Shown: piece by piece, positions 52,164-58,080 of the stretch
Numbering within the stretch: position 1 is the first letter of the stretch
How the letters are laid out: the number at the start of each line of letters is the position of its first letter
NCBI GenBank assembly: GCA_020912385.1
Contig: CP087207.1
Coordinates: forward strand, 558,001-622,000
From: Neofusicoccum parvum
Taxonomy: Eukaryota; Ascomycota; Dothideomycetes; Botryosphaeriales; Botryosphaeriaceae
Length of the DNA: 64,000 nucleotides
Direction: 5' to 3'
The notes under the pieces: model-generated
What the model saw: only the letters and a program-made list of their open reading frames with translations
Database searches by the model: none
Told to the model about the DNA's origin: nothing
Translations under genes and position numbers: made by a program

Positions 52164-55100
52164 ATGCCATTTGAGCGCTCAACTGTGACAACCACCGAGG
52201 CTGTTCCTAAGGTCGCAAATTTCCTCCATCCCGACATTTCGCAATCTGGCCTTCCACCCACCCCGACAAGGCGCTCGACCATAGCCCAGGATGTACCGCT
52301 TCAGTCTCCCACGCATGCAGGCGACGGCGCCGTCCATGCGAAAGGCCGTACCTCGACAATTTCTCACCCTCCCCGGTCCCGCAGCCGTCGCCAAGTCGTG
52401 GGTGTCGCATTGACCTCTCAGGACATTTACTGCCGCCATGAGGCCGAGAGACTCTACGCCGGCAAGCTCAAGCAAATGCCGCCGCCGGAAGACCTCGAGA
52501 AAGAGTGGAGAGAGCACGTTAGGCCTCGCCTAGCCGTAGATGTCCTCACAGTCATCGAAAAGCTGCCGAAAAAGCTGACGCGTAACGAGACCGTTGTCGA
52601 GCTTGAGCTTTGCATGGCCGGGTACGCCAAGGAAAATGACCTAAAGGTGGATCTTCGCCCCACGGTATGGCTGCGGTGTGGGAGCAAGAAGTGCCGAAAG
52701 GCGGTGCGCTCCGCTGTCCAATCTCTGGCCTATTTGAACGACTTTGTCAACAAGCGTATTGAAATACGGTGTCGTGGACCGTACCCGGCGGCCTTTGTCC
52801 CGATAGAGCCCACCCAGCCCGGTATCCGCGTGGTTGATGATAACTGCGTCATCCATCTTCACGTAGAGACGGCCGACAGCCAACAGTCCTCCGCTTGCGG
52901 CACGAGATTGCTGGTTACGGTCTGCCGTGAGGAAGAAATTGTTGCCCAACAAAGCTCTACCATTGGAGGCATGATAAGCCTTCCTACCCGGAAAACCACT
53001 TCAGAGGATAGCACAGCAACCGTTCCGGACCACAAGAGCATCCTCCACGGGCTCACAACTGGCCATGGCCTTGTCGATCTTTACACGGATGCCTTGAAGA
53101 GCAAGAGCAATGTTCCTGGTACTGACGAGTCTACATCGCAGTCCGAGACAGACTCGAACGACGCGGCTTTGGAAGATGACTCGGAGGAGGAGTCCGAAGA
53201 AGGTGACTCGGATGAAAGCGTTGCATCTGCAGAATGTCCACCGGACCTGTGCGAAGATGAACTCAAGCTTGTTTCCTGGACCAGAGTTGAGGGTCTCGGC
53301 TTGTCCAGTTATTGCGGAACCAGCTTACGAAATAGTGATTCTGTGTTCGATTCTACACTGGAATCTAACGCTAATGCAGACTTCGCACTTGTTAAGCTGG
53401 GATCTTATTCCAGCACCAAGAATCCTAACACATATCTGAGTCCGGATTCCGGGCATATCTGCTATGTGAGAACGGTTTGCCCGGAAAAGAGGATTACTCC
53501 TGGGTCTGTACTCATCCTCGCCCAAAGAGGGAGCGCATTTCGAGGACATTTGCTCGCAAACACCTCACAAATCATTTCTCGAGACCGCGATCCTACATTC
53601 CGAACCAGGAAGATACAAATTGACCACCCCTTGCGTGAGTCCCTCTGCAAGCGCCATAGGTACAGTTTGCTGACATCGGCGCAGCACTTGGCTCGTCAGG
53701 AAGTTGGGTCGTCAGAGGGTCTAGTCTACTTGGGGTCATAGTGGCAAGCTACAAACATGACCCATACGTGCACATGATACCTGCGGAGAAGATCTTTGCG
53801 GATATAAATGGCCTCTACGGTCCCGAAGCCAATCCAATCGGCGTTACACTTCCGTGCCCGGAGACAGCTGAGGAACAGCAAGCGGGATTCGTTTGGAACG
53901 TTCCGAGAAAGCCGATCAGTTTCTTTACCGGTCGCGTAGAAGTGTTGAATGAGATTCAACGGCTTCTTGAGACCACGGAGAGCAAAATTCAAAAGATAAT
54001 CGTCATAACTGGCATTGGTGGCATGGGAAAGAGTGAGATATGCTTGAAATTCGTTCAAGAGAGGCGTATTGAGTAAGTCGTCTTTGTCCCTGTTTGAGAA
54101 CAAAGTCACTGATCTTGTTAGTTTCGCCGGCATTGTCTGGGTCGACGTCAGCAACCCCTCAAAAGCCACTAGAGACTTGATTAAAACCGCAGCGAAATTG
54201 GGCTCATCCGTTCAGAATCTGGAAGAAGCTATACAAGTGCTCAGCAGCGTCACAACACGCTCTCTTATTGTCCTGGATAACGCGGATGATCCGAGAGAGG
54301 ACTACCGGAAGTACTTTCCCACTGGTACTAATTGGTCTATCCTCTTCACTTCCAGGAACCCCAAATGCGCGAATCAAAGTACTTTCTTCTCCATCAAGTT
54401 GGGCCCCATGAGCTCTCCTGAATCCGTATCTCTCCTTCTTCGAACTATTGGACACCCTGAAACCCCATCCAATGAGAGCTCTGCGAAACCGGTTGCTGAA
54501 GTCCTCGGATACCATCCTCTCGCCTTGGTTCAAGCTGGTACCTATATCGCGGAAGGACACTGTAGCCTAGCGGGTTACCCCATAGAGTACGAGCAGCGGT
54601 ACCATCCACTTCTTCATTTCAAGACACCCAAGGCCCAATCAAGATACACCAACTTGTACACGACGTTCGAAGCATCTGCTCTTGAGCTTCAGCGTTTCGG
54701 TGATCCGATGGCTCAAGAGGCGCTTTTCTTACTGGAAACTTTATCACTTTTTCACTTTTCAAAGTTTCCAATGGAGGTCCTCAAGGAAGCATGGGCAAGC
54801 GCCCTTCAAGCCATGAACGCTCGGGCTAAAGACCAGGATGAGCTGGACGTAGATGGTCTATCCGGAGATCATGCGGAGATTCTCTCAAAAGCCCTTCCAG
54901 TGTCATCCTACCAATGGGAGTCTTCCCGGCTCCGAAGAACGCTTCGACTCCTCAAATCCTATTCTTTGATCACTACTGATGACAAGAAGAATATTTCAAT
55001 GAACTCATTGATCCAAGCTTGGGCAAGATACCGGCAGACGCCGTTCAAGAGCGCAGAACTGGCCGGATCGATTATCGCGCTCTCCTATCACTCATCAACA

Positions 55101-56207
55101 GTGTGGACAGACCTGGAGACGCAAATGCGACCCCACATCGAAGCTTTCTTGAACAACGGAGCAAAACTACTCAGGTCAAGAGCGGACATTCCCTCGGAGG
55201 TTCAAGTCGGATTCTGTTGTGCAAAGATACTTCTCCAGATGCGGGAAGATGGGATGCTTCACGACTACCTCAGCCACATCTTCGAGAAACTTGGGAAAGA
55301 TCCTCGGAGACCGACGGTGTACCTTCTACCCCTATATAAGATCGCTGCTCTAAACCTCCTCGACATCGGAAACGCAACGGACTCAGTAGAAATGTGGCTC
55401 CAAATTCAGAGCATTGAGAAAGTATCGCTGCTTAGAAAACATCCGAACATACCACCGGAGACGCACCCAAGCATGCTGGCAACACTCCACGAGCTCGCAG
55501 GTGCTTACCAAGCAACCGGCATGGTCCAAGAAGCCGTGGACATGCACGAACACACCGTCCGCATCAAGATCCAGACACTCCCGGAAGAACACCCCAGCCT
55601 GCTCGCCTCGCAGCACCAGCTGTCTCGCGCCTACCAGGCCACCGGACACACGGACGAGGCCATCCAGCTGCTCGAACACGTCGTGCGGGTGCAGGCCAAG
55701 ACGCTGGCGGAGGCGCACCCGAAGCGGCTGGCGTCGGAGCACCAGCTCGCGCACCTGTACCAGAACTCCGGGCACAACGAGAAGGCCGCCGCACTGCTCG
55801 AACACGTCGTCCGCGTGCAGCAGGGCGCGCTCGCGGAGACGCACCCGGACCGGCTGGCGTCGGAGCACGAGCTCGCGTGCGCGTACAAGGCAGCCGGCCG
55901 CACGGGCGAGGCCGTGCAGCTGCTGGAGCACGTCGTCACGGTGCAGAGGAAGACGCTGCCGGAGGCGCATCCGGACCGCCGCTTGTCGGAGGACGCGCTC
56001 GATGTGTTCCGCCAGAGGAGCCGGTTGGCGAGGATAAAGGGGCTGCGTTCGCACAGGAAGGGGGGAAGTGTGGACGTGGGCAGGAAACCTGTCAGTGATG
56101 CTGCCTTCAATCAGGCCCAAATCGCCAACAGCAAACGGGTTGCGTTTGCGCAGTCAGGCTCGTCAGCCCAGCGGGTCCCGGGCAAGCGGGACCAAGATTT
56201 CGCTTAG
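52164..56207 (+). CDS. NLR/STAND receptor: trypsin-like protease - NB-ARC - TPR
   Basis: Three exons, 52164-53634, 53685-54072 and 54122-56207, with introns of 50 and 49 nt, give 1314 aa. The N-terminal half is a trypsin-like module: H301 in HGLTTGHGL, D406 in ADFALVKL, and S495 in LGSSGSWVV, which exists only after splicing. An acidic loop (about 325-355) separates H and D. The protease part ends VHMIPAEKIFADI. The NTPase follows, with Walker A GIGGMGKS (600-607) and Walker B SLIVLDNADD (D672). Then comes a helical region, and from residue 1068 four 42-aa TPRs and a partial fifth, each beginning HP. The tail is basic. The architecture implies a ligand-triggered switch controlling proteolysis, as in fungal non-self NLRs; that role is inference. 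An in-frame GTG opens the frame at 52131, but the first ATG is at 52164. Confidence 0.88.
55464..55967 (+). repeat. Four tandem 126-bp units encoding TPRs
   Basis: Units at 55464-55589, 55590-55715, 55716-55841 and 55842-55967 each encode 42 residues starting HP. A partial unit follows from 55968. Units 2-4 share long stretches such as LASEHQLA and LLEHVVRVQ and are clearly more GC-rich than the rest of the gene. This suggests recent duplication or gene conversion in the ligand-sensing part. Confidence 0.85.
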
Positions 56208-56671: not shown

Positions 56672-58080
56672 TTATGAGCTTTGCGTGCCTGGACTGCCCT
56701 TGTCCTCTAATTGACGGTTAAGGCGAGTTTGCCCGATCTACAAGGCCATGCATGATTAGAATCCCGAATGAAAATCTTGGACAGAGGATATACGTACTTG
56801 GATGACGACCAGCCAGATACCAATTCCAGTTAGCATGGCTAATTAGACAGGACGACATTAGCGTGTGGTCATCACTCAATATGTTGTCCACCTATGTTTT
56901 CGGGGTCTCCGTGTCGTGTTGGTAGTCCAATTTCGGCTGTGCAAAGTTCCATAGTACCGCAAGCTTCAATCTGCAAGGATATTCAATCTGGAGGCTTACC
57001 AGCAACCACATCTCGATGAGTGCCGCCCAAAACTTTCACAACCCAGCTGAGAAGGCTGCTCGAAATCAACGACCAGAAGATGGCTATCCAGAAAAAGTAT
57101 TGCTCGAAGGTGGGAGAGAACTCGCTGTTGGTTGCAATGATGCCTACTCCATAGAAGCACACAAGAGCAGCAACAGCGAGGTAGAGAGTGAGCTTCCAGG
57201 CACGGGCAACCCGGTAGCGAAGCTCCGTTTCTCCACTCACTTGGTATCTCAAAGACCCCTTCTGCCGCTCCTCCGCTGTCTTTGTACGCCGCGTCCACGT
57301 ATGGAGATCGAGAAGGTCGGCACCCATAAATGCCTGATATTGTGTGAATTCAAAACCGTTGACGACACGGCCAAGAGTAAATTACCTGTATCTGCTCCAG
57401 GTGGTACTTTGACAACACTCTCTCATGGCGTTTGTTGACATCGACAGGCTCGACAATATTGCTTGTACTGTGTCCCCATTTCTTGCTGAGCATCAGCCAG
57501 TTGCCCCGTCGCGTCGCAGCAGCCTGGTTCTTTGGTTCGAAGTGCACAATGCTCAGGCCGCGCGATGCCGCATATTCGGGATCTTCCAAGCGAAGGCGCT
57601 TCGCTTCGCTTTCGACCATTGTATCTACCGAATTTCCTCGGTAAGCAGGTGGTTGGATTTTGTGGTCGGTTGCTACTGACCCATATCTCTCAGGAGCCCA
57701 ATTGCCCTGTCTACCTTGTCCTTGTCTTGATGCATAGACTGCATCTCCCTCTCCAGTTGCAGCAGAGACGAGCTGACATGATCGAAGCATTTTCTCCGCA
57801 GCTCTACGAGGCTGGGAATGAAGATGGGTGGATTGGCGTTTTGGTCAAGCCGAGAGATCTCATTGAAAACCTCTGCATAGTCGTTGGTGTAATGGCCGAA
57901 TAAAGGTGTGCCACTCAGCGGTGCTGCAAGGCCGTTGCCTATCTGGTGCGTTGCTACTCAAATAAGTAGGCAGCTGGCTATGTTGGGTGTTGATCGCATA
58001 AACGTACCAGTCTCATTGATGGGAGTGAGTGGGATCTCGTCATCTATGTGCCCATGGCTTCGGCGGAACCGACTTGCCAT
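56672..58080 (-). CDS. Six-exon membrane protein with coiled coil and three C-terminal TMs
   Basis: Exons on the minus strand: 58008-58080, 57681-57938, 57386-57624, 57000-57333, 56798-56838 and 56672-56737. All join in phase to 336 aa. ATG is at 58078-58080 (MASRFRRSHGHIDDEIPLTP). The N-terminal half is charged and helical (LVELRRKCFDHVSSSLLQLE, then ESEAKRLRLEDPEYAASRG). Three hydrophobic helices follow: LTLYLAVAALVCFYGVG, FFWIAIFWSLISSSLLSWVV and, from the 41-nt exon, MLTGIGIWLVVIQ. The layout of helical cytosolic part plus late TM cluster resembles fungal DUF6594-type proteins, but that link is tentative. Function unknown. It converges on the NLR gene, so a shared role is possible but unsupported. 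The 161-nt fourth intron is the least certain. Confidence 0.72.

Follow-up and report, generated by a model that had tools for sequence, protein, structure and literature searches.

A predicted chymotrypsin-fold protease module on an NB-ARC–TPR receptor gene of Neofusicoccum parvum

Gene structure and the receptor half

The window analysed here, a stretch of 64,000 nucleotides from Neofusicoccum parvum (GenBank assembly GCA_020912385.1, 44 Mb in 18 contigs; contig CP087207.1, positions 558,001 to 622,000 of the forward strand), carries a gene that we read as a fungal NOD-like receptor (NLR) uniting three parts in one chain: a predicted serine protease module, an NB-ARC nucleotide switch and an array of tetratricopeptide repeats (TPRs) (Table 1). 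An earlier note on this DNA had proposed that removal of 53635–53684 and 54073–54121 joins three open reading frames (ORFs) in phase, that the first splice completes a GSSGSWVV serine motif, and that H301, D406 and S495 are the candidates for a catalytic triad. These proposals hold: the spliced frame runs from the ATG at 52164 to the stop that ends at 56207, its 3,945 nt encoding 1,314 residues uninterrupted by any other stop codon, and the three residues stand at the expected places in the motifs GLTTGH, DFALVK and GSSGSWVV, the last of them formed in the spliced product.

The splicing was assessed in two ways. Among 726 GT-AG pairs with donors between 53064 and 53741 and a spacing of 40–420 nt, 93 restore the frame; the Asp motif and the Ser motif both survive in nine of those 93, of which 53635–53684 alone has a GTRAGT donor. 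Stronger and independent support comes from introns shared with paralogues: the site and phase (phase 1) of intron 1 recur in a protease paralogue on contig C3, in the same codon directly before GxSGSW, and those of intron 2 (phase 2) recur in an NB-ARC–TPR gene at the C13 locus, where the shared codon is that of the Asp in DFAGI. The gene models of several relatives break at the first of these sites, five (P0023–P0027) ceasing to match at window residues 485–490 and two (P0028, P0029) starting at most about 25 residues ahead of the Ser motif, as is expected if gene calls ignore introns; this pattern was seen in the protein models.

Table 1. Coordinates of the receptor gene and its parts in the window
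Feature	Coordinates	Strand	Details
Exon 1	52164..53634	+	Residues 1–490 plus one base of codon 491; low-complexity start, N-terminal alpha/beta domain, predicted first beta-barrel (H301, D406), start of second barrel
N-terminal alpha/beta domain	52401..52778	+	Residues 80–205; family motif PTVWLRCGSKKCRK at residues 166–179
Predicted PA-clan (chymotrypsin-fold) serine protease domain	52881..53821	+	About residues 240–536, split by intron 1; fold from relative P0002
H301 codon	53064..53066	+	Predicted catalytic His, GLTTGH
Acidic Ser-rich insert	53091..53261	+	Residues 310–366, between His and Asp strands
Alternative donor GTTATT	53308..53313	+	Fits the P0001 junction; removal of 53308–53684 skips 109 codons
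D406 codon	53379..53381	+	Predicted catalytic Asp, DFALVK
Intron 1	53635..53684	+	50 nt, GTGAGT...GCTGAC...CAG, phase 1
Exon 2	53685..54072	+	Ser motif, protease end, linker, NB-ARC P-loop
S495 codon	53696..53698	+	Predicted catalytic Ser, GSSGSWVV
NB-ARC nucleotide switch	53891..55037	+	About residues 560–925, split by intron 2; P-loop GIGGMGKS 600–607, Walker B-like RSLIVLDNAD 666–675, ILFTSR, MNSLIQAWAR 913–922 at the MHD position
Intron 2	54073..54121	+	49 nt, GTAAGT...TTAG, phase 2
Exon 3	54122..56207	+	Remaining NB-ARC, middle region, TPRs, stop
Tandem TPRs	55455..55997	+	About residues 1065–1245

The closest protein found, P0001 of N. ribis (SLS56_003157; 1,224 residues), retains the same fusion and is 97% and 99% identical to the window protein. 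It also carries the formal assignment of the switch: the NB-ARC family of Pfam scores 32.7 bits in P0001 against a cut-off of 23.5, a cut-off that no single window exon passed when the exons were scanned one by one. The bacterial FxSxx_TPR model of NCBIfam matches P0001 with E 1.1e-65 and 222.6 bits, under its cut-off of 300. The TPRs are recognised in the window itself, exon 3 matching TPR_10 (E 1.4e-25) and TPR_12 (E 7.6e-23), and the best PDB match of the array is 4y6c, named "anserina putative kinesin light chain" (E 3.1e-67). The P-loop and the tandem TPRs named in the earlier note are thus both in place. At the DNA level the array contains a 126-bp unit in 3.0 copies with 73% matches (55601–55978), a repetition that resembles the high-identity repeats of fungal receptors.

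The protease module, its family and the origin of the fusion

The N-terminal effector of the window gene is predicted to be a chymotrypsin-fold serine protease. The fold comes from a relative, P0002, which is 27% identical to the window protein over the module: its predicted structure is a chymotrypsin-like double beta-barrel in which strand order and motif positions agree with the layout of the candidate triad. The comparison with PA-clan structures suggested in the earlier note is thus answered for this homologue. The N-terminal alpha/beta domain is confidently modelled (blocks of residues 80–199 with a predicted local distance difference test score, pLDDT, of 93–98), and the stretch of P0002 equivalent to the acidic insert (344–387) has a pLDDT below 50.

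Conservation of the triad motifs was followed in 31 proteins, namely the window protein, the C3 paralogue and 29 relatives from searches (20 plus nine more), a lower bound because scoring was confined to the candidates with the most shared words; the organisms named for these relatives are ascomycete fungi. By pattern, His, Asp and GxSG[STA]W are found in all 23 complete modules, the eight excluded being P0001 (its model skips the Asp), P0023–P0027 (ending before the Ser) and P0028–P0029 (beginning after the Asp), and H301 and D406 are invariant in a 13-row family alignment. The loop between His and Asp varies in length from 59 to 125 residues (in P0025, which has the shortest, the pattern may have picked another Asp), and Asp, Glu and Ser make up 28–44% of it, in raw composition, in 24 of the 28 proteins measured; the window protein stands at 0.44 and the exceptions are four Alternaria proteins (P0009, P0011, P0012 and P0017; 0.18–0.19). 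It is possible that this acidic, Ser-rich loop is a regulatory element.

The module occurs in several contexts. No STAND domain (signal transduction ATPases with numerous domains) is recognised in 27 relatives (P0002–P0009 and P0011–P0029), of which 20 are complete, all with His, Asp and GxSG[STA]W; no NB-ARC or NACHT was detected in the 17 of these 27 that were scanned. Behind the module, P0007 carries a protein kinase, P0004 has a Nudix domain and P0003 has a C2H2 finger marginally above the cut-off. Fusions to NB-ARC or NACHT, for which the earlier note had suggested a search in other fungi, are represented among the relatives found by P0001 (NB-ARC) and P0010 of Diaporthe batatas (KVR01_004081), a predicted protein with a NACHT domain and the module at its C-terminus (residues ~1045–1926); P0010 could be a second STAND fusion, or a gene model merging two neighbours.

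Two weaker features were noted in passing. P0014 has a weak CorA-like membrane region behind the module, below the cut-off. In the partial protein P0021 (Lepidopterella palustris), residues ~507–526 behind the module end in KKELGKKHPDTLTSMANLAS, which by eye looks like the start of a TPR and was confirmed neither by Pfam nor by short BLAST; a real TPR there would make P0021 a protease–TPR fusion without NB-ARC.

Searches of the N. parvum genome with two query proteins found two loci with the protease module, the window gene and the stand-alone copy on C3. Exon 3 matches the C13 locus at 36% identity over 646 aligned positions and also matches loci on C4, C6 and C18. At C18 a PNP_UDP_1 domain lies directly upstream on the same strand; the C13 locus has a GVVFLGTP stretch, reminiscent of sesB-like lipases, that has no Pfam match; and at C4 and C6 no family was found in the upstream ORFs scanned. 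The front domain thus appears, from these comparisons, to vary on a shared NB-ARC–TPR chassis. Intron 1 is shared with the protease gene and intron 2 with the NLR gene, as would be expected had the two been fused, and we infer that the window gene unites a protease gene of the stand-alone kind seen on C3 with an NB-ARC–TPR chassis of the kind seen on C13. The genome has a rich STAND repertoire, with at least 47 NACHT and at least 9 NB-ARC matches at E ≤ 0.001. Adjoining the C3 paralogue is a 1,292-residue ORF (L013:4743-8621, minus strand) that by eye resembles a protein of a long interspersed nuclear element (LINE)-type retrotransposon, with endonuclease and reverse transcriptase.

Proposed mechanism and alternative readings

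Protease effectors on fungal NLRs, and trypsin-like effectors on or beside bacterial STAND proteins, are already known. A survey lists S8 among the former (Dyrka 2014, PMC4986451); a review adds CHAT, reports S8 and CHAT NLRs beside gasdermin genes and is the source for the proposal that these act in cell death or non-self responses (PMC12881547). The bacterial cases are described in PMC12799240, PMC7159879 and PMC8195603, and in Avs1 the trypsin-like protease is reported to cleave and activate a pro-nuclease (PMC12799240). Like the S8 and CHAT NLRs, the window gene combines a nucleotide switch, superstructure-forming repeats and an N-terminal protease domain; unlike S8 (subtilisin-like) and CHAT (caspase-like), its module is predicted to belong to the PA clan and has a second N-terminal domain, and, by an insensitive test, no gasdermin neighbour was recognised. 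With Avs1-type trypsin–STAND proteins it shares a protease and a STAND NTPase in one protein, a likeness of layout only, whereas the window gene is fungal, has an NB-ARC–TPR chassis and has no adjacent metallo-beta-lactamase (MBL)-fold pro-nuclease gene among the ten neighbouring ORFs scanned. PADLOC models run on five relatives gave no Avs1 match, the only Avs hit being Avs4 (E 0.08) on the ATPase part of P0001. The structure alignment of the P0002 model with rice NARROW LEAF 1 (NAL1; PDB 7y77, 8pmi and 8pn2), a plant trypsin-like serine protease, extends across both domains of the module, chain 7y77_A covering model residues 108–572; for the fungal N-terminal domain alone, NAL1 is not among the structure matches listed.

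We consider it fairly likely that the gene encodes a fungal NLR whose predicted chymotrypsin-fold protease effector stays silent until a trigger at the TPRs and oligomerisation of the NB-ARC release cutting in the fungal cell. The sensor–switch–protease layout in one protein, as the earlier note had it, is supported by the continuous frame, the shared introns, the conserved triad motifs and the predicted fold of a homologue. Beyond the domain assignment, we infer the steps by analogy with fungal S8 and CHAT NLRs and with Avs1: ligand sensing would fall to the TPRs; the NB-ARC would swap its nucleotide and then assemble; assembly would cluster the protease modules, which might be activated by proximity or by a shift of the acidic loop and the N-terminal domain; and the active protease would cut a cytosolic pro-protein, for example a pore former or a pro-enzyme, leading to cell death or a non-self response.

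If true, a PA-clan effector, of which we found no published record on a fungal NLR in the literature searched, would be a third protease fold on these receptors beside S8 and CHAT, and it would offer a eukaryotic parallel to the bacterial trypsin-like proteases on STAND switches that activate a pro-effector. With sensor, switch and protease in one chain and an active site predicted to the residue, the gene is suited to asking whether NLR oligomerisation directly activates a serine protease. NLR surveys that rely on profiles will probably overlook the module, because no Pfam family was found for it and one NCBI model is probably mis-spliced. A much broader reading, which we put forward only tentatively, is that Pezizomycotina hold an undescribed family of cytosolic two-domain PA-clan proteases, NAL1-like in shape and deployed as an exchangeable cassette for killing, whether as a stand-alone protein, attached to kinases or, in at least two cases, attached to STAND switches (NB-ARC in Neofusicoccum, NACHT in Diaporthe); the window gene would then be a fungal counterpart of bacterial trypsin–STAND immunity, the widespread acidic loop might be a safety catch, and in-frame alternative splicing could give a protease-dead receptor.

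Several observations weigh against a working protease receptor. No Pfam trypsin family matched window exon 1, exon 1 of the C3 paralogue or any of the 19 relatives scanned (out of 29), so that the protease assignment relies on motif content, conservation and fold; the NCBIfam protease models likewise gave no match in five relatives scanned. The residue ahead of the predicted catalytic Ser, which corresponds to Asp194 of chymotrypsin, is Ser in the window protein and varies across the family (S, V, W, L, M, A, I, T). At the MHD position the window protein reads MNSLIQAWAR versus MHPLAHSWAK in the C13 NLR, with Asn in place of the His of the MHD-type motif. The NCBI model of P0001 lacks the catalytic Asp, and P0001, from a very near relative, is the only other NB-ARC fusion of the module among the proteins found. 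Finally, the ten neighbouring ORFs scanned yielded no recognisable pro-effector partner (nuclease, MBL nuclease or gasdermin), and Gasdermin (PF04598) of Pfam, a model that may miss fungal gasdermins, had no match in the genome.

Two rivals stand out, a decoy module and a regulatory role like that of NAL1. The module may be an integrated decoy: a parasite would attack the stand-alone protease family (the C3 gene), and the receptor would carry a bait copy to sense this, its own cutting being dispensable. A stand-alone paralogue does exist in the same genome, and there are proposals of putative integrated decoys among fungal NLRs, the domain concerned being a kinase similar to the PRD-4 orthogroup (PMC12258605). 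The window module, however, retains His, Asp and Ser, and it sits at the N-terminus, where fungal effectors sit, whereas the kinase is C-terminal in nine of the 12 kinase-bearing NLRs reported there (PMC12258605); we regard a decoy as unlikely.

Close behind it we place a regulatory protease that acts on development or transcription through the degradation of a regulator, in the way plant NAL1 degrades TOPLESS-type corepressors, and that takes no part in immunity or cell death. This reading is doubtful: the back half of the window protein is an NLR chassis, and the C18 relative of that half has a different upstream domain; moreover, the family profiles retrieved no NAL1 chain when searched against PDB sequences. 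NAL1 is not known to have an NB-ARC or TPR half or to be an NLR.

The junction of the P0001 model raises the question of a splice switch, in which donor 53308 makes a real isoform without D406 and splicing sets the ratio of active receptor to protease-dead receptor. The model corresponds exactly to the window spliced from that donor to the same acceptor, which drops residues 383–491 in frame so that both forms read through, and a second real isoform is conceivable because the skip stays in frame. Against this, the donor GTTATT deviates from GTRAGT while a GTGAGT lies 327 nt downstream, we found no sign that P0001 rests on transcripts, and the skipped stretch is conserved: the remaining 12 rows of the 13-row alignment contain it, residues 384–491 are 33% identical to the C3 paralogue (E 3.9e-6 for a fixed search space), and seven of 30 compared proteins, C3 paralogue included, reach E 0.01 with them. 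The simplest reading of the P0001 junction is that it is probably a mis-predicted intron, and we think a splice switch improbable. A recent two-gene chimera kept by chance and functionless, to which the single other NB-ARC fusion in a very close relative might point, is highly improbable, as the frame is intact across 1,314 codons and N. ribis keeps the fusion at near identity.

Neighbouring genes

Pfam recognised an MFS transporter, a tyrosinase, a P450, an RRM protein and a DUF1687 protein among the ten neighbouring ORFs, the other five having no match. Downstream, on the minus strand at 56983–57957, lies a multi-exon gene, its two scanned ORFs without a Pfam match, that contains hydrophobic stretches.
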